From the NCBI GenBank assembly GCA_026991065.1, contig JALXCG010000441.1, positions 1-19,280 of the forward strand: a stretch of DNA of 19,280 nt, in the 5' to 3' direction. Of this stretch, positions 2,270 through 16,776 are shown piece after piece; position 1 is the stretch's first letter, and the number at the start of each line of letters is the position of its first letter. The stretch comes from JALXCG01 sp026991065 [NCBI: Gemmatimonadota bacterium]. Lineage in GTDB: Bacteria; GCA-2686955. The notes beneath the pieces are model-generated. The model made no database searches and was not told where the DNA came from. It saw only the letters and a program-made list of their open reading frames with translations. The translations under genes and the position numbers were made by a program.

Positions 2270-2451
2270 CGCCCTCGGCCGCCAGCAAGGCCCCATCTGC
2301 GTCGTTGGCTGCGAGCCCGACTCCCTGCGGCGTATTGAGATACGCCTCAGTCGCCGGTCCCTTGCCGCCTAGCATCTGGCACCTTGCTGGCGGCCGAGGA
2401 GAGCCACAACCGATGCACTGGAGCGGGATTGCAAAATCAGGTGGAGGATTC
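2270..2451 (+). repeat. dispersed structured element, copy 1 (upstream of pilM)
   Basis: This stretch matches 16565-16725 in the same orientation. The core at 2286-2359 is 74 nt long and differs from the other copy at 8 positions with no indel. The right part, 2396-2451, matches at 40 of 56 positions and ends in an identical GGTGGAGGATTC. The 36-nt link between these parts is 22 nt longer than in copy 2. The core holds GGCGTA-N6-TACGCC (2329-2346) inside a longer dyad, and CAAGG/CCTTG enclosing arms. The strand given is the one on which differences between copies keep G-U pairs; the DNA alone does not prove transcription. It fills most of the gap between the prepilin peptidase stop (2534) and pilM (2170). 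No plausible protein is encoded: the open frames through it are not conserved in copy 2. Confidence 0.8.
2273..2399. repeat. 18-bp perfect inverted repeat enclosing the core of copy 1
   Basis: CCTCGGCCGCCAGCAAGG at 2273-2290 is the exact reverse complement of 2382-2399, with 91 bases between. The right arm can instead fold locally: GCCGCC (2364-2369) with GGCGGC (2389-2394). CAAGG at 2286-2290 can also pair with CCTTG at 2361-2365. Two mutually exclusive folds are therefore possible. Copy 2 does not have the long 18-bp arm, so this extension is specific to copy 1. Confidence 0.75.
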
Positions 2452-4081: not shown

Positions 4082-6028
4082 CTACTTGCCCTGCTCTCGA
4101 TGGTCACCGCCGGGCCCATGGTCCGCACCGCTATTTTCGCCGAATCCAAGCGTTTTCAAGAGAGCCAAGGCCGACCGGTAATTGCCAAGAGGCGGCATGA
4201 CATACGCCCCCACGACCCGCTCTTTGACCTCGTGCAGAGCTTCGCTGGCGATGGCGACTCCTTCGCGGCGTGCCAAACGGCCACTCCCAACCGCTTTCAT
4301 GCGTTCCAGGATCTTCGCCGGAATCTGCATCCCAGGGACTTCATTGTGGAGGAAGAGCGCGTTCTTGAAACTGGCGAGGGGCAAGAGCCCCACCATCACC
4401 GGTAAATCCAAGGTCGCAATGTCGTCGAGAAACCGGTGCAAGAGTTCTGCTTCGTAGACGGGCTGGGTCATCACGAATTCAGCACCAGCGGACTTTTTTT
4501 CCTCCAGCCGGCGCAATTCGCGATCGTAGTCAAGCGCAGCCGGCTCCGCTCCACATCCGAGGACGAACGAGGTCCGTGCTCCCACTCCTCGCCCCGCAGG
4601 ATCCACGCCGCGATTCAACCCCCTGGCCAGTTTCAGCAGCCCAATCGCGTCGACGTCGTAGACGGCGGTCGCATTGGGATAGTCTCCGGTCTTGGGCGGA
4701 TCTCCCGTGATAATCACCAGATTGTGCAGTCCCGAAACTGCTCCACCGAGAAGGTCGGACTGCAACCGCAGCAGATTGCGGTCGCGCGCGCAGACATGCA
4801 ATATCGTATCGATTCCGACCCTTTCCTGAATCACCGCAGCCAGGACCGAATTGGAGATTCGGACGGTGGCCCGAGGGCCATCCGCGATATTGACAACGTC
4901 GCAGCCGCCATCCCGGAGCAATCGCGCCGCATTGATCGCCCGGTCGAGATTGAGTCCAATCGGCGAAGCCACTTCCACGCTGACGCAAAACGAATCCGGG
5001 GTCACTCGCCCGGGGTCGTCGCCCTTTACCCTTTGCCGATAGACGCGCGCAATCTTCGCGCCGAAAGGGGAACGGGCCTCAAGAGGGATGGCCTCGCGCG
5101 CCACCCCCTCGGACGCGGGTTGCGCCCCCCCACCGCTCACCACGTGAATCTTACCGCCGCTCAGCATGCGGGCCGCGCCGGCAGCCGCGCGTATATGGTC
5201 AGCCGTTGTACCGCAGCAGCCTCCCGCCATCGCCACACCCGCTTTGAAGGCTCGCCGCACAAACCCGGAGAAGTACTCCGGTGTGACCATATAGAGCAGT
5301 CGTTCGTCCACTTTCCGAGGGTAGCCGGCATTGGGCTGCATCGACACAGGCAGACCGCGCCCGACCATCCTCCTGGCCACGGCAAAGCTTGCCTGGGGGC
5401 CTTCCATGCAGTTCACCCCGACAGCTTGCGCGCCCCATTCCTTGACCAGGTCCGCCACGCGTTCGGGATCAGCGCCGTCTGCAGTGCACCCCTCTTCGTC
5501 AAAAGCCATCTGAGCGACCACGGGCAGGCTGGTCGTCGTCCGCACCGCCCAGAGAGCCACCTTCAATTCGGAAAGCAATCGAAACGTTTCCAGGACGATC
5601 AAATCGACCCCAGCCGCGGCAAGCGCCATGGCCTGTTCTTCATATGCAGAACGAATTTCGGCCAACTCCGCATCGCTTAGCACCGAGGGGATGCGCCCCG
5701 TCGGCCCCATCGCGCCCGCCACCCACACCCGCCCGGCTGCTGCTTCGATCGCCAACGCGACCGCCGCAGTGTTGATCTTTTCCGCCTTTTCTTCGATCCC
5801 CGAACGTCGCAGGCGAATGCGGTTGGCACCGAAGGTATTGGTTTCGATCACCTGGGCGCCGGCCGCGATATACTCCAGATGCACGCTGCGAACCAGTTCC
5901 GGGCGCGATAGGCACAACTCTTCGAAGACCTGGTTCAGAAAGACGCCCCGACCGTACAAACTCGTCCCCATCGCTCCGTCCCAAAGAATCGGGCGCGCCC
6001 CAAGAGCATTGACGAAGGGTTCAAGCAT
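4082..6028 (-). CDS. bifunctional homocysteine S-methyltransferase / 5,10-methylenetetrahydrofolate reductase (YitJ type)
   Basis: A 648-residue fusion. Residues 1 to about 295 form the zinc-dependent homocysteine methyltransferase barrel: WDGAMGTSLYGRG near residue 16, ETNTFGAN at 62-69, and the zinc-binding cysteines C207 (GVNC) and C271-C272 (GGCCGTT). After a linker, residues of about 330-620 form the FAD-dependent MTHFR barrel, with PDSFCVSVEVASP, a LHVCARDRN segment, ITGDPPKTGDYP and MTQPVYE. Methylenetetrahydrofolate is reduced to methyl-THF. The other domain methylates homocysteine from a donor that may be S-methylmethionine or methyl-THF; no B12-binding domain is present. The ATG at 6028 is the natural start of the barrel. 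The gene has no obvious link to pili and sits between the response regulator and the pseudopilin with short gaps. Confidence 0.93.
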   Translation of the reverse strand: MLEPFVNALGARPILWDGAMGTSLYGRGVFLNQVFEELCLSRPELVRSVHLEYIAAGAQVIETNTFGANRIRLRRSGIEEKAEKINTAAVALAIEAAAGRVWVAGAMGPTGRIPSVLSDAELAEIRSAYEEQAMALAAAGVDLIVLETFRLLSELKVALWAVRTTTSLPVVAQMAFDEEGCTADGADPERVADLVKEWGAQAVGVNCMEGPQASFAVARRMVGRGLPVSMQPNAGYPRKVDERLLYMVTPEYFSGFVRRAFKAGVAMAGGCCGTTADHIRAAAGAARMLSGGKIHVVSGGGAQPASEGVAREAIPLEARSPFGAKIARVYRQRVKGDDPGRVTPDSFCVSVEVASPIGLNLDRAINAARLLRDGGCDVVNIADGPRATVRISNSVLAAVIQERVGIDTILHVCARDRNLLRLQSDLLGGAVSGLHNLVIITGDPPKTGDYPNATAVYDVDAIGLLKLARGLNRGVDPAGRGVGARTSFVLGCGAEPAALDYDRELRRLEEKKSAGAEFVMTQPVYEAELLHRFLDDIATLDLPVMVGLLPLASFKNALFLHNEVPGMQIPAKILERMKAVGSGRLARREGVAIASEALHEVKERVVGAYVMPPLGNYRSALALLKTLGFGENSGADHGPGGDHREQGK

Positions 6029-10109: not shown

Positions 10110-13100
10110 TTAGAAGCGAAAAACCGTCCAGAGAGTCAACTTAACGTTCCGGGTCGTGCGGTCATCACGCAGATTGCGATTTTCTGACCAGCGCAATTGG
10201 ACGCCACCATCAACCGAGCGGCTGAACCCATAGTCCATGGTTGGCTCAATGGTCCACGTTCGCGTATGGAGATCTGGAATCAATCCAAGTTGCTCATTGT
10301 CGAAATCTTTCTCTTCCGGATCGTCTTCAAACGGCCAGTTGACCCCCGGCACAATCGAGATGGTCGAAGACTCCTCGCGCGAAACCTCGAGCCCCGCCTT
10401 TACATTGCCGTGCAGCTTGACATAACCGAAAAGGGGAAGATTCACGCCCCGCCGCGTATTGAGCGTATAGCGCAAAGACGCGCGCGAGGAGTTGCTCTTG
10501 GCTCGCTGAGTGCGCGTAATCTCACGCGTGAACGTGGTTGAACGCGAGTGCGAAAAAGTACTGGTCACGTCATGCTTCCAGGTGGTCTGCCATTGGAGTA
10601 AGGGCTTCCATTGTCGCTTGGTTGAGACCCGATCCAGTTCATCGATGTGGTGCCGACGGCGAAAAGCAGTTCCGCTCATGCTGCGAGACCACTGCCAGCT
10701 TGAGGAGAGCGACGATGACTGCGCGTAGCGACTGAGCAAACGCGATGATTCAAGGCCGGCCCAAGTGGCGGAGAGGTCCGGGCGCGTCCAACTCTTGGTG
10801 CACTTGTGATCGATCGAAGGGTTGTCGTAAGCCGACAGCTTCGATGACCAACTCACACTCGCCTTCAGATGCAGTCGCAACGGCAGTTGCACCCCACTGG
10901 AGGCCCGCACCGTGTGATCTCCAAGGTAGCTGCCCTGGCGCGTCTCTTGATAGAAAGACCCGTTCCCCAATTGCCCAAGCCCTAGCATGTAGCGCAGGTC
11001 GCCGCCTTCGATCGCGTTGGGATCATTGCGGTCCTGGTTCCAGACCCAGGAGGTCGAAATTGGATCGATGGCCGCTAATCCATCACTCCACATCCGGCTC
11101 AGATCCTGCCACAAGCCGGTTGGTTCCGCTCTCTCCTCCCTCTCTGCGCTCTGCTTCGTCGAGCCACCATCCGCGCCGCTTGCCTTCCTGCCAGTACGCG
11201 AAGAGACCCGAGCTTTCTGGGTGTGCTTTGTTCCCCATATCTGCCCCGGCTTGAGCGTCAGACTCATATCGACGCGGCCGTCTGACTGTAGATTGTGCAG
11301 CTCCTCATCGGTTGCCGCGGATTGGATTTCGCTGCTCTTGTTCTCGTTATACGTAACCGTATAGCTGGCTTTCGGAGCCAACCAGCGACCGATCTTTGGC
11401 GCGAACGACGCCCCGGAGCGCATGTTGAACCGATCCTGCCGCCCCAGCCAGCCGCTGGATCCGCGCAGATCCCGATTCTCAGTAATCGAGTGATTAAACG
11501 TGAGAGCACGAAACGGTGCCCATGTCGATGCGTATTGATTCTCCAGATCCTCATCGTGAATCGGGATATTGGAGGTCTCGACAATCTCTCCAAAGAGCTT
11601 GGTGAAGCGGTCATGACTGCGCAACGTGTAAGCACTGCCAAATGAGAGCGAAGAGGGCAGAAGCGAAATCCCCCAAGGACCAGGCAGTGGAATCTCTCTG
11701 CGCTTGCGCTGATTCCAGTTCCAGTCGAGTTCGCCGCTCAGGTCCGTGTTGTCGACCTTTTCCACAAAGGAGTCGCGCTTCTCCCGGCGCCAGGACACGC
11801 GGCCGGTTGTGTTGTCGACCGTCAAATTCACCAGCGCGCCGGAACGGCGGCGTTTTTTCGAAAACCGCAGCGACGCATCGTAGATCCTGGTCCTGGACAT
11901 CTCCTCCGCCGCGCGGCCGCTATCCAAACGAACATCCGAGCCCACCGCGAGGCGCGGCTTGCGCACGGTCTGCGTGAGAGAGCCTTTCAGCGGAAGCGAG
12001 ACTCCCCATCCGGGGGGAAGGAACCGGTCGAGTTGCAGATCCCCCAGCCCGTTCCAATCGGTCTGGTCTGCGCCCTGTCCGCGATTGGTTCCAAGCCCAT
12101 GAAACTCGGAATCGCGGTATTGCCAAGTCAATGATGCATTGGCGAAGTCCGAGAGCGCGACCCGGCCGGATACGCGGGCCGCCACACCCGGATCGCGGCG
12201 AACCCGGGTCAGCCGCAAATCATCGACCCATACCTCATCGGCGACGATCATCTCCCCCGAGCCCGGAACCAAGAGTCCGTCCCCCTCGGCAGCATTCCCG
12301 AGATTGCGAACTCCGATCTCCAGCCGCTTGATTCGCGTCAAGGAAGGGCGGCCGACCACGCTCACGCCCATCTCCTGGTTTTCGTAAGGCAACTCCAAAC
12401 CTGCCTTCTCCGCATCATCCTTAAAAAGCGTCAAGGCCTGCAGATCCAGCTCTCTCCGCGCCCAACCATTGGCATCGAGTCCCACCGAACCCGGCGGCTC
12501 GACCGGAACTCTCCATTCGTAGTAGTTCAGAGAATCGGCGCCGAAACGAAAGAAGAGTTCCGGCTGAGACTCCCGCCCCTGAACAAAGACCTCCAGACCT
12601 CCATAGAGGGTGTAGTCCACCGGATCAAAGAGGGACTGCACCAGAAGCGCTTCGTGTCCAGCCCGCAGGTTGTTGATCTGCAAAGCCAGCCCCTGCTCAT
12701 TCCGCACCCGTCCATCCTGGTCCCGCTCAACTCTTACCCCAACCGGGGGCTTGTAACCACGCTTATCGTCCTCACGGGTGCTCACGGTCGCCGCCGCAAG
12801 CCCCTCATCGGGATAGACCGGCGAGCCATCGAGAGAATTGACTTTGCGCTGTAGCCAAGTACTACCGACGACGTCGAGATTGGCGATCGAAATCTCCGAC
12901 TTGGATTCAACACCGTCGTACCAGAGCCGCACATGCTTGATCTCTCGCAACGACGGTTCGACTCCCCCATCAACTACAACAGTCGCGTCGGTGATGGGGA
13001 TGCGGTAGCGACGCCAGGTCCGGCCGCTGCTGTTGGGTTCCCGGTCGCCGCCAACAATTCGCGGATCATTGCGATCACTCAGGTCGAGCGTGTAGCGAAA

Positions 13101-16100
13101 AAGCGATTCAGCCAGATCCAGCCCACCATCCTCATCCATATCTTCGGTATCGAGCGTGTTGTTGTCTTCGGTTCCGTTGAGATCGCGATACACACCTTGG
13201 CGATAGTTGTAGTCATCGTTGCCATCATCGCAACCGGGGCCACACTCGGTTTCACCACAGGCAGGGTCATCACTGTCGACATCGGGGATCTGGTCAAGCC
13301 CAACATCCTCTACTCGCTGCAGCAATCCATCGCGATTGAGATCCTCAGTGTCAAAGCACCCCTTGCCCACCAATTCGCCACGCCGATTGCGCCGATTCTG
13401 ATCCTCGCTGACAGTCCCGAGGTCGATGTGCAGCACTCCGGCTTCGGAGCCCTCTATGGCGATCCAGGCCTCGATATAGCTCCGATTCGCAAAGTCGACA
13501 CCAAGGGAGGAGAGAGGCCGCTGAATGCTCATGTAGGAGCGCCGGAGAGCTTCCGGGTCGCTCCCGCGAGGATTGAAACTCAGCCTCAGCACGGTCATTC
13601 TATCGTTGCGCTCCTGAGGCGGCAGCTCGTCAAAGATCTCGTCCCGGCGCGGTAGATCCTGCGGATCGGGATTGAACCAGATGGCGCTCCCCACATCCAA
13701 CGAATCGGGAGCCCCCCCGGGGCCTGAGGCAACCGCATCCTCGTCGCTCTTGTCGCTGCCGGCGGGAGTCGAGCCAAAGCTCCAGGTGCGGCGCGATCCA
13801 AGCAGACTGAAAACGGTCTCGACCGCCTCCATATCGTCCACGTAGCCGTAGTCCCGCACATTGGGATTCGGCAGTGAAGCCGCCACCTCCCCCTCGATCC
13901 GGACCTTCGATGGGCGCGAGGCTTCGACCAACGGAATCGCGTCGGTCATCGCGGTCAGAAAGCTCGGCTCCAACTCCACATGGGCGTCGACATCTGCCAC
14001 ATGGATCCGCCCGACCTCTCGTCCAACACGGGGCTTCTGATCCACTGATCGCTGCGACTCATAGAGCCAGGTCGCACCGATCGCGCCATCACCATCCAGG
14101 AACTGGTAGTTCGAGCGAACCCCCAACAGGGTCTTCTGGGCGAGATCAAAGAAGGGCGCATATTCATAGTTGATCTTGACGGTCGAAGTTGGGCTCGGTG
14201 GCGTCACGAAAGTAATCTGTCCCACTTCATAGACAATGAAATAGTCCTTGTCGCGCACCAGGGTGCGGCCATCGACCCTTACCACCTCCGAGTTCGGAAG
14301 GATGTTGATGTGCCCGAGACTGAAGCTCGAGCGGATCTGCTTGAATGCCGCCCGCAGCCGATAGATCGCGTTCTCGCTGCTGAGGAGCTTTGACTTCTGT
14401 GTTTCGTAAATGGTTGGGTTCTTTACGTCCAGCGACGTGGAGATCCAGGGAAACGGCAGAGAATCCGCTTCCGTGGCCCCCTCCGGAACCACCGGCTGCA
14501 ACGGAATCGTCACAATTCCCTTGGCCAAGGCGAACTGATTTTCGGGAACGGAGATGTCGGTGTTCAGTCGACCGTCGCCATCTGGATCAAGTCCCAACAG
14601 CTGCATGTAGGGTGTTCCAGACGCATCGACTTCGATCGCATCCAGCCCCCCCGCCTCATTGACAATGCGTTCAACCTTGAGCACAAAGCCCTCCGCCGGG
14701 ATGTTGCGTGCTCCGAGGTCGTAGCGATTGCGCAACATGTACGGCCAGGTCGCATGATCCGGGTGGAGGCGGGGCTCCTTGAGCAATTTCAGCGTCAGGG
14801 AGCCATCGGTCGTCCCGACATCCTCAACTTGCCCGCCAATGCGACGTCGATAGGCCACAGCCAAACGATAGCCGTCGTCCAGGCGAAAATTCGGCAGGAT
14901 CTCCAGAACTCCGGCCTGGGCATCGTAGACATAGTCCTGCTGCTCGATCAGTTGGACGAAAGAACCACTGGAATCCAGCGGTGCAAAGTCGGCTGCCTTG
15001 CCGAAATCCTCTCCGTCGAGGAAGAGCGTTCCCGGGATCGCTCCGGTGCGCAAGGAGTTGTTGCCATTCCCGTCATCATAATAGACTCGCAGGTCCAGCA
15101 CTTCCGCGCCTTCGCGCAACCCGCGAACCGGAACCGGGTGCCCCGCAACCACGACTTCCGGATTTAGTTCGAGAGCGAAAAACCGGTTGGCAACATATTC
15201 GATATCCTGAATCACCAAAGTATCGAGCGTGGCCTGCCCAAGAAATTTACCCTCTTCGGCGTTTCCTTTCTGTTTCGAAGCGATCATCGTCAGATCAAGA
15301 TTGCCCAACCGGCCCACGGCCTTCAGCCCAAACAGCCCCTTGCTCTGCGCATTGACCCCCACAAAACGGGTTGAGGGCAGTGAGAGTTGAGTATCGCCGG
15401 CCTCGATGCTCTGAATGATTTCATCCTCGTCCCCCTTGTAGGAGAGCTTGATCTTGTTCTGCGACTCCGCTCCCGCCGTGGAGTTGTGGTCGACGTCGAT
15501 GTGAACCTTGGTCCCGACCGTCCCCTCCAAGCTCAATACCAACTCCTGCTCCATGCCCAGATCAGGCCAGGCTGAATTGCGGTCGAAGTCAGTACGGGCC
15601 TGGCCCACCTGCCAGTTGGATTCACCACTAAAAGCGATCCGCTGATGCCCGGAAACACGGATGCTCCCTCCCTGTCCTATCACGCTGCCTAGCAGGCCCG
15701 GGAGTTTCACGGGCAAAGCGATATCGGGTACCAGCCCCTCCTGTCCAGCGCGCTCCTGGTCAGCGCGTTCTTGATGCCCGCGCCGAAAAGCCTCTTGCAG
15801 CGACCGCACTGCTCCCGCGCCAACAAACTCCTCCAGATAGGCGTCCAGAGGGCGCACTTTCACCGGAACTGTCGGAATGCTGTCGAGCAGCGTCGAACGC
15901 ACCAGTAGAAGATGCGTGGAGAAATCGATGCTCCACGTCTGGTCACCGTGGATGGCGGCCGCGCGTCCCGGCAAGCGGGAAGGGAACAGGTGCCGGAACG
16001 CGTGGGAAGGCTGATCGCGGGGGATCTCCAATCCAATGTCGCGAGGCAGCAAGAAAAGAGCGAACCCGTCAGCCTCGTCCCCGCTGGACGGTTGCCCCCC

Positions 16101-16265
16101 CCGGGCATCGTCCCCGGCCAAGGCGCGGTTGCCAGAGAGTGCCGAGCAGAGCAGCACAACAAGGAGAACAATTGCCCGGCTGCTCCACGCACAACATCGG
16201 TGGCTGAACCGAGCCGGACCGCCCTTGCGCGACCTTCCTGGCACTTTAAGAATGAATGGACCCAC
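10110..16265 (-). CDS. sprA: SprA-like giant outer-membrane protein (type IX secretion translocon family)
   Basis: A 2051-residue protein with a signal peptide: hydrophobic helix after an Arg-rich start, cleavage near ALAGDD at about residue 51. Residues of about 190-340 carry SprA signatures: LPVKLPGLLGSVIGQGG, SESQNKIKLSYKGDEDEIIQ-like strands with an IEAGDTQLSLP turn, and SKGLFGLKAVGRLGNLDLT. The middle has repeated blocks of short beta strands. The C-terminal half consists of alternating strands ending in a terminal Phe (WTVFRF), as in outer-membrane barrels. A Cys- and Asp-rich insert at about residues 967-1055 has calcium-loop-like repeats (DLNRDG, DVDSDD, DMDEDGG). In Bacteroidota, SprA forms a very large barrel that passes type IX substrates; those proteins are usually about 2300-2500 residues, so this one is a little short. 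The GTG at 16265 is the first start after an in-frame TGA and has a weak ribosome site. Confidence 0.87.
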   Translation of the reverse strand: MGPFILKVPGRSRKGGPARFSHRCCAWSSRAIVLLVVLLCSALSGNRALAGDDARGGQPSSGDEADGFALFLLPRDIGLEIPRDQPSHAFRHLFPSRLPGRAAAIHGDQTWSIDFSTHLLLVRSTLLDSIPTVPVKVRPLDAYLEEFVGAGAVRSLQEAFRRGHQERADQERAGQEGLVPDIALPVKLPGLLGSVIGQGGSIRVSGHQRIAFSGESNWQVGQARTDFDRNSAWPDLGMEQELVLSLEGTVGTKVHIDVDHNSTAGAESQNKIKLSYKGDEDEIIQSIEAGDTQLSLPSTRFVGVNAQSKGLFGLKAVGRLGNLDLTMIASKQKGNAEEGKFLGQATLDTLVIQDIEYVANRFFALELNPEVVVAGHPVPVRGLREGAEVLDLRVYYDDGNGNNSLRTGAIPGTLFLDGEDFGKAADFAPLDSSGSFVQLIEQQDYVYDAQAGVLEILPNFRLDDGYRLAVAYRRRIGGQVEDVGTTDGSLTLKLLKEPRLHPDHATWPYMLRNRYDLGARNIPAEGFVLKVERIVNEAGGLDAIEVDASGTPYMQLLGLDPDGDGRLNTDISVPENQFALAKGIVTIPLQPVVPEGATEADSLPFPWISTSLDVKNPTIYETQKSKLLSSENAIYRLRAAFKQIRSSFSLGHINILPNSEVVRVDGRTLVRDKDYFIVYEVGQITFVTPPSPTSTVKINYEYAPFFDLAQKTLLGVRSNYQFLDGDGAIGATWLYESQRSVDQKPRVGREVGRIHVADVDAHVELEPSFLTAMTDAIPLVEASRPSKVRIEGEVAASLPNPNVRDYGYVDDMEAVETVFSLLGSRRTWSFGSTPAGSDKSDEDAVASGPGGAPDSLDVGSAIWFNPDPQDLPRRDEIFDELPPQERNDRMTVLRLSFNPRGSDPEALRRSYMSIQRPLSSLGVDFANRSYIEAWIAIEGSEAGVLHIDLGTVSEDQNRRNRRGELVGKGCFDTEDLNRDGLLQRVEDVGLDQIPDVDSDDPACGETECGPGCDDGNDDYNYRQGVYRDLNGTEDNNTLDTEDMDEDGGLDLAESLFRYTLDLSDRNDPRIVGGDREPNSSGRTWRRYRIPITDATVVVDGGVEPSLREIKHVRLWYDGVESKSEISIANLDVVGSTWLQRKVNSLDGSPVYPDEGLAAATVSTREDDKRGYKPPVGVRVERDQDGRVRNEQGLALQINNLRAGHEALLVQSLFDPVDYTLYGGLEVFVQGRESQPELFFRFGADSLNYYEWRVPVEPPGSVGLDANGWARRELDLQALTLFKDDAEKAGLELPYENQEMGVSVVGRPSLTRIKRLEIGVRNLGNAAEGDGLLVPGSGEMIVADEVWVDDLRLTRVRRDPGVAARVSGRVALSDFANASLTWQYRDSEFHGLGTNRGQGADQTDWNGLGDLQLDRFLPPGWGVSLPLKGSLTQTVRKPRLAVGSDVRLDSGRAAEEMSRTRIYDASLRFSKKRRRSGALVNLTVDNTTGRVSWRREKRDSFVEKVDNTDLSGELDWNWNQRKRREIPLPGPWGISLLPSSLSFGSAYTLRSHDRFTKLFGEIVETSNIPIHDEDLENQYASTWAPFRALTFNHSITENRDLRGSSGWLGRQDRFNMRSGASFAPKIGRWLAPKASYTVTYNENKSSEIQSAATDEELHNLQSDGRVDMSLTLKPGQIWGTKHTQKARVSSRTGRKASGADGGSTKQSAEREERAEPTGLWQDLSRMWSDGLAAIDPISTSWVWNQDRNDPNAIEGGDLRYMLGLGQLGNGSFYQETRQGSYLGDHTVRASSGVQLPLRLHLKASVSWSSKLSAYDNPSIDHKCTKSWTRPDLSATWAGLESSRLLSRYAQSSSLSSSWQWSRSMSGTAFRRRHHIDELDRVSTKRQWKPLLQWQTTWKHDVTSTFSHSRSTTFTREITRTQRAKSNSSRASLRYTLNTRRGVNLPLFGYVKLHGNVKAGLEVSREESSTISIVPGVNWPFEDDPEEKDFDNEQLGLIPDLHTRTWTIEPTMDYGFSRSVDGGVQLRWSENRNLRDDRTTRNVKLTLWTVFRF

Positions 16266-16441: not shown

Positions 16442-16564
16442 GCGGCGTTGCGATTAGCGTCGGGTCCAGTAAACTCCTTGTGTCGATACTCTGGAAAAGT
16501 CGGAACCACTGATCGGCCCATGATCTTCGCGCACGCCACAGAAGTCAAGATCCCGCAGACAGCC

Positions 16565-16725
16565 TCGCCTCGATCCAGCATCAAGGCCCCATCTGCGTCG
16601 TTGGCCGCGGGCCTGACTGCTTGCGGCGTATTGTGCTATGCCTCAGTCGCCGGTCCCTTTCCGGCGTCCGGGGAGCGCCAAGACCAGTACGCTGGAGCAG
16701 ACTCGCAAGACTGGGTGGAGGATTC
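16565..16725 (+). repeat. dispersed structured element, copy 2 (between sprA and the kinase gene)
   Basis: The core at 16582-16655 matches 2286-2359 at 66 of 74 positions. The right part, 16670-16725, matches 2396-2451 at 40 of 56. On the plus strand the dyad becomes GGCGTA...TATGCC and TTG...CAG: both changed pairs remain G-U wobbles there, but would be A-C mismatches on the minus strand. The link region holds its own small hairpin (CCGG-CGT-CCGG at 16661-16671) at the position where copy 1 has GCCGCC/GGCGGC. A frame of 187 codons (16448-17011) runs through it, but the predicted protein is low-complexity and is not conserved in copy 1. The rest of the 16266-16934 gap holds the promoters and hairpin listed separately and nothing else I can name. 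Confidence 0.8.
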
Positions 16726-16776
16726 GCCGGGGCGGGCGGACTCTCCGCGACCGAGGCCAGCAATCGACGGTTCACT

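Follow-up and report, generated by a model that had tools for sequence, protein, structure and literature searches.

What is the noncoding repeat that occurs twice in a 19,280-nt stretch of a Gemmatimonadota genome (the whole stretch is called the window here), and how far beyond this genome does it reach? A preliminary description, made from the letters of the DNA, had offered a structured RNA, a mobile non-autonomous repeat, and a regulatory block of DNA. Our analysis indicates that the window feature is very probably a decayed or decaying IS1380-type MITE, and that its core belongs to a cross-phylum hairpin family of candidate function, probably known in part from Geobacter. The MITE explanation is ordinary for the window; the reach of the core, ~90 nt long, is not.

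Copies, limits, and target sites in the window genome

The core of the first window copy, described earlier as 74 nt long and repeated 14 kb away, was found again at 16579-16663 in the same orientation (88% identity over 85 nt), and further alignments join 2248-2367 to 16544-16663 (78%) and 2382-2451 to 16656-16725 (73%). The ORF list likewise agrees with the two copies occupying the window's only two intergenic regions longer than 300 bp. A repeat produced by chance or recombination and confined to the window would account for these two copies and for nothing beyond them; it has practically no probability left, being refuted by 28 matches in the window genome (BLAST, some partial; other copies down to E 5e-51), a MAG of 4.14 Mb in 902 contigs that is 83.8% complete, and by relatives in other genomes. 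The same count replaces the earlier figure of two copies. The covariance-model search of the source genome, one of the checks proposed earlier, found further copies as well, with at least 29 core matches among the 150 of 2802 candidates scored, and G001, the one further genome searched from that family and phylum, contained no match to the repeat.

The aligned copies have a common start, CCTCGATCCACCATCAAGG, and a common end, GGTGGAGGATTCTGG (the family ends are also given as CCTCGATCCACC / GGTGGAGGATTCTGG), and are about 160-183 bp long, typically ~182 bp. Their terminal inverted repeats, CCTCGATCC / CCAGAATCC, are imperfect, agreeing at 6 of 9 positions, and the two ends resemble each other partly, as CCnnnATCC. 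Of the 12 copies whose ends could both be read, 10 are flanked by a 5-bp target-site duplication (TSD; at least 4 of 5 bases), an outcome seen in 0 of 10,000 permutations, with the register of 5 bp chosen after the flanks had been inspected. Per-base identity was 0.77 for a copy's own flanks versus 0.25 for swapped ones, and the 4-mer and 6-mer registers show nothing (0.25 and 0.28). The 12-copy count left out L002_1, L002_2, L027_1, L018_1, L012_1, L011_1, and L013_1, together with truncated copies; when these seven are restored, the duplication is present in 10 of all 19 aligned rows (still 0 of 10,000 permutations) and missing from nine, the second window copy included. Since a TSD is a signature of transposition, the limits of the first copy were set at 2273-2454, in place of the 2270-2451 given previously. 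The copies differ by indels that are not multiples of three, in agreement with a non-coding element. The features assigned in the window are as follows.

2268-2272, no strand: left target-site duplication AGCGC (sequence and 5-bp TSD statistics)
2273-2454, + strand: copy 1 of the putative MITE, 182 bp, with IS1380-type ends (genome copies, TSD, ends)
2273-2287, + strand: left terminal inverted repeat CCTCGGCCGCCAGCA, consensus of the other copies CCTCGATCCACCATC (aligned copies, end comparison)
2273-2290, + strand: 5' outer arm, exact reverse complement of 2382-2399 (sequence)
2291-2381, + strand: 91-nt core common to other lineages (model R1, 111 bits, E 7.5e-26, this copy being part of the R1 training alignment A2)
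2325-2350, + strand: apical hairpin CTGC-GGCGTA-N6-TACGCC-TCAG (sequence and fold; no covariation support in the window genome)
2382-2399, + strand: 3' outer arm CCTTGCTGGCGGCCGAGG (sequence)
2440-2454, + strand: right terminal inverted repeat GGTGGAGGATTCTGG (family consensus 21/27 identical to the right end of an IS1380 element in G094)
2455-2459, no strand: right target-site duplication AGCGC (sequence and 5-bp TSD statistics)
16568-16730, + strand: copy 2 of the putative MITE, of a shorter subfamily, right end uncertain (alignments; no TSD, 1/5 bases match)

Both the apical motif, first written as CTG-x-GGCGTA-N6-TACGCC-x-CAG, and the arms enclosing it are present in copy 1. Copy 2 reads TTGCGGCGTATTGTGCTATGCCTCAG, has its core match to the covariance model at 16587-16673, and carries CCTTTCCGGCGTCCGGGG at the position of CCTTGCTGGCGGCCGAGG in copy 1. 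It belongs, as L013, to a short subfamily that is ~22 nt smaller and has only one of two CCTTGC segments; L002_2, L005, and L008 are further members, and L024 was also assigned to it by alignment. One contig of the window genome (L002, G000:C813) holds two copies of the window element head to tail, the first of which ends after about 127 bp.

According to a crude ORF caller, 17 of 23 copies are intergenic and six overlap a frame; the window copy is one of the six, because there the caller preferred a spurious frame to that of the prepilin peptidase. Copy 1 lies between minus-strand genes for this peptidase (PF06750, PF01478) and for a protein that we read as PilM-like and that has no Pfam match, and copy 2 lies between the divergently transcribed genes of an SprA_N protein and a protein kinase. 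A regulatory block beside surface-structure genes had been suggested; matches occur on many contigs, beside gene pairs of varied orientation, and therefore no regulatory role is suggested. Elsewhere in the window, a single gene (4082-6028) fuses homocysteine S-methyltransferase and methylenetetrahydrofolate reductase domains, and the SprA_N-domain protein (10110-16265), encoded in the same window as the prepilin peptidase, is 2051 aa long.

IS1380-like ends and a sister element in Desulfobacula

The end motif together with the 5-bp TSD led us to consider the IS1380 family. The ends of ISEcp1, a member of this family, are presumably similar to the end motif of the window MITE. Direct repeats of 5 bp are given for another member, IS1247, in a table of PMC3281130. 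The window genome contains two IS1380 fragments, both below the curated cut-off; PF13701 had no match, and this 84% complete MAG of 902 contigs yielded no IS1380 gene that is intact. In one relic (L046), a C-terminal IS1380 remnant is followed by GGTGGAAGATCCTGG, to which the right end of the MITE consensus is identical at 19 of 27 positions (0/20,000 shuffles).

IS1380 was detected above the cut-off in 16 of 78 genomes from the class of the Desulfobacula MAG described below. Among the 18 IS1380 loci examined, two have ends CCCCAATCCACC... / ...GGTGGATTTGGG (L093/L114 in G077 and L094 in G094). The right end of the MITE consensus is 21/27 identical to the G094 end (0/20,000 shuffles) and its left end 15/24 identical to the G077 end (11/20,000), both being the best of the ends compared and the shuffle counts uncorrected for that choice. 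The four G094 IS1380 copies have identical flanks in the stretches examined.

Like IS1380-family MITEs, the window element is short and non-coding, its ends start with CC...ATCC and resemble those of complete IS1380 elements from the class to which Desulfobacula belongs, and it has a 5-bp TSD and many copies. Unlike them, it has as its interior a large imperfect palindrome that other bacteria carry between different ends, and the window assembly holds no intact partner IS that we could find. The IS1380-like ends and 5-bp TSDs speak for the mobile non-autonomous repeat among the options first proposed. Most likely, an IS1380-family transposase acting in trans would have recognised the ends CCTCGATCCACCATC.../...GGTGGAGGATTCTGG and inserted the element at a cut staggered by 5 bp, whose repair would account for the AGCGC duplication. 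The interior of the element is an imperfect palindrome of ~91 nt from a hairpin family of many bacterial lineages, and its copies in the window genome drift apart, with the fold not clearly kept.

A sister element was found in a Desulfobacula MAG (G041; L035, L038-L042), with at least 121 model matches among the 150 of 997 candidates scored. It is 184 bp long, and its consensus is identical to the window MITE at 136 of 177 positions (77%); once the ends and the core are set aside, little similarity is left, and 36 of 2000 shuffles score as well. The element has ends CCCTGATCCACCATC / GATGGTGGATTTGGG and imperfect terminal inverted repeats CCCTGATCCACCATC / CCCAAATCCACCATC. TSD-like repeats of 4 or 5 bp flank 9 of the 13 usable copies, out of 29 rows, with at least 3 of 4 bases matching (0/10,000 permutations). 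In one sibling (L041) the outer arms are exact, CCCTGGCCATCATACGGT / ACCGTATGATGGCCAGGG, unlike most of the others and like the window copy.

The core in other bacterial lineages

A pattern search of genome contigs found the core in MAGs named Rokubacteria, Tectomicrobia, Desulfobacula, and Geobacteraceae; the Geobacteraceae contig (L037) scored only E 0.059 with model R1. This model was built from 24 cores, used with a hit threshold of E 1e-4, and applied to 386 genomes with at most 11 candidates scored per genome. At this threshold or better it matches 15 of the 386 genomes, from 14 genera; training sequences had come from two of these, namely the window genome and G032, which is apparently the Tectomicrobia MAG. 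RNAalifold gives only six pairs on the mixed 24-copy alignment, and R1 is therefore in effect a sequence model, with rough E-values. A model search of 15 genome or locus sets yielded 38 matches in G367, 13 in G174, 12 in G441, and nine in G438.

Many copies have the form X-TGAAAAAG-CCCATCTGC.GCGTTG-m-GCGGCGTA-loop-TACGCCTC-m'-CGCCTTGCATCTGGG-CTTTTTGA-X'. These copies fold as a single hairpin, L138 and L117 less regularly, with recurring mismatches, namely G.G beside A/T tracts and TC/TC next to CATCTG. No wide-family copy scanned had a match in Rfam, and among the matches listed in the open-licence literature there was no description of a cross-phylum family or of such an IS1380 MITE. Carriage by phages or plasmids was rejected: searches of viral contigs with three exact patterns found 0, 0, and 1 stretches, and three queries gave no plasmid match. 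The core is present in the viral contig IMGVR_UViG_3300044712_002209 (L185:6193-6283, 57.8 bits). Neighboring elements were seen at some loci. A Rokubacteria MAG (L034:3592-3869) has two cores 186 bp apart with an apparent partial third between them, hairpins in L152 (G367) are 128 bp apart from start to start, and in L141 (G441) another hairpin begins just behind the copy.

A 2009 paper on Geobacter metallireducens (PMC2700814) reports 24 elements, named "predicted short RNA elements", whose central palindrome is GRCGTAGCGCTGCTACGCC, and multicopy sequences are mentioned for G. bemidjiensis and Pelobacter in PMC2996986 and PMC3543383. With one mismatch allowed, GRCGTAGCGCTGCTACGCC gives 18 matches, spread over 9 of 44 Geobacteraceae genomes, versus two for the reversed control. 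The elements of 2009 share with the window core a central GRCGTA...TACGCC palindrome. Sixteen of these 18 loci were inspected by eye; boxes of the type CATCTGC-like / GCGTT ... GCCTTGCAT were seen in 10 and were absent from 6. The R1 values for the palindrome are uneven, with 4.9e-6 for L198, 0.004-0.01 for L194, L199, and L200, and weaker ones for the others; L201 has a separate core (R1 2.9e-10). The 2009 family appears related to the window core; in contrast to the window MITE, no IS1380-type ends were noticed by eye at the palindrome loci. Several Geobacteraceae copies lie between genes read from translations as the partners gltB-gltD, gatC-gatA, and nuoCD-nuoE.

Pairing of the arms and the rival readings

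The fold of copy 1 beats 200 of 200 shuffles (z -3.5 as RNA, -4.2 as DNA), and its outer arms pair with -43.8 kcal/mol versus -3.2 to -25.6 in 18 other copies. Its sibling L002_1, 93% identical, has an identical 3' arm and a 5' arm, CCTCGATCCCCCATCAAGG, that differs in the central block. Since the window copy is an outlier in pairing and the arm of the sibling differs, the strong hairpin is largely particular to the window copy. The exact 18-bp outer arms would most likely result from one template switch (quasi-palindrome correction), by which the 3' arm was copied into the 5' arm.

The nested hairpin had been called conserved. Copy 2 differs, and among 20 window-genome copies pairing in the apical stem does not exceed that of shuffled controls (75.4% versus 74.3%, 166/500). 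Arm-swap permutation over 19 copies, with the second copy in L002, L004, L005, L008, L013, and L024 omitted, gave 243/5000 for the X arms with the window copy, which is borderline, and 796/5000 without it; the m arms gave 3322/5000. These arm swaps and apical-stem pair counts do not bear out a conserved hairpin in the window genome. In the Desulfobacula element, own and swapped X arms differ slightly (1/5000) and m arms do not (4658/5000).

In other genomes the wider family covaries. Within-genome swaps in 54 of 60 elements, from nine genomes, gave -19.7 kcal/mol for own versus -15.0 for swapped X arms and -12.7 versus -10.9 for m arms (0/5000 each), and the outer control flanks gave 1372/5000 in the same test. 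The X-arm effect is strong in G367, G438, G174, G212, and G125, weak in G441 and G213, and absent in G032 and in the six window-genome copies of this test. Pairing is also kept at a single locus, unlike in the window-genome copies. Downstream of nuoCD, the wide-family hairpin follows just past the stop codon in 6 of 22 Geobacteraceae loci and is absent from 16 (by eye, 300 nt; loci from 39 genomes with a NuoCD match). The six nuoCD-nuoE copies, which include two close relatives, have 18 compensatory double changes among 42 aligned pairs and 93.3% pairing cells versus 80.6% when shuffled (0/500), the structure being derived from the same alignment; four of five pairing measures gave 0/500 shuffles, and further pair types gave 11/500. 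The lasting mismatches would argue against palindrome correction as the sole force.

These observations bear on the reading that the window genome retains the element as a functional structured RNA, be it a riboswitch, an sRNA, or part of an untranslated region. The strong fold of the window copy, the covariation of the related family elsewhere, both in X and m arms and at nuoCD-nuoE, and the borderline X arms with the window copy included are what would be expected of it. However, the X-arm signal is lost without the window copy, neither the m arms nor the apical stem covaries, the TSDs show that the whole unit was transposed, and the flanking genes are codirectional or divergent. At the Rfam gathering threshold the window had no match, and four weak matches at E 1-4.6 are at chance level. 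Thus a riboswitch or other Rfam RNA was rejected, which agrees with the earlier remark that no known riboswitch could be recognised, and the structured RNA offered in the preliminary description is very unlikely for the window genome. An intrinsic terminator is disfavoured because several Geobacteraceae copies lie between genes read as operon partners and a T-tract is missing from the window family. Selection for RNA on the + strand was not apparent either: 69 elements have 64 G.U-type versus 87 A.C-type mismatches (p 0.07), so that the covariation does not tell RNA from single-stranded DNA.

In another reading the element is a hairpin of REP/BIME type, mobilised by some hairpin enzyme such as a RAYT (Y1) transposase, and the IS1380-like ends are incidental. 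The wide family, with its recurring mismatches and copy-specific arms, has this character; moreover, a comparison of 16 of the 19 copies in the constant-arm family of G174, G441, and G169 brought out no TSD register, at least two of these copies being poorly anchored. Like REP, BIME, and REPIN sequences, the window elements are palindromic repeats, mostly intergenic, in tens of copies. However, they are longer and have a 5-bp TSD and IS1380-like ends, and we consider this reading very unlikely. Integron attC sites are also imperfect palindromes with conserved unpaired bases and variable stems, as are the elements described here; unlike them, the window elements are mostly dispersed singly and have TSDs, and no attC boxes were seen by eye.

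An IS1380-type MITE remains the preferred reading for the window. For its core we tentatively consider, as a possibility that is somewhat doubtful, an unrecognised bacteria-wide folded element of ~120-150 nt, which would have been spread by a hairpin-based mechanism, captured by an IS1380 transposon, and carried across phyla; in such an element the stems would differ copy by copy and yet stay complementary. Copy-specific complementary stems offer a natural test of selection for folding versus palindrome insertion versus template switching. Since Geobacteraceae have copies between genes that we read as members of the nuo, glt, and gat operons, relatives that grow in culture could be used to test for a function or a neutral mechanism. 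Several of the remaining nuoCD-nuoE gaps (L204-L225) contain, by eye, other small hairpins or repeats, and this locus is possibly a hot spot of palindromic repeats.
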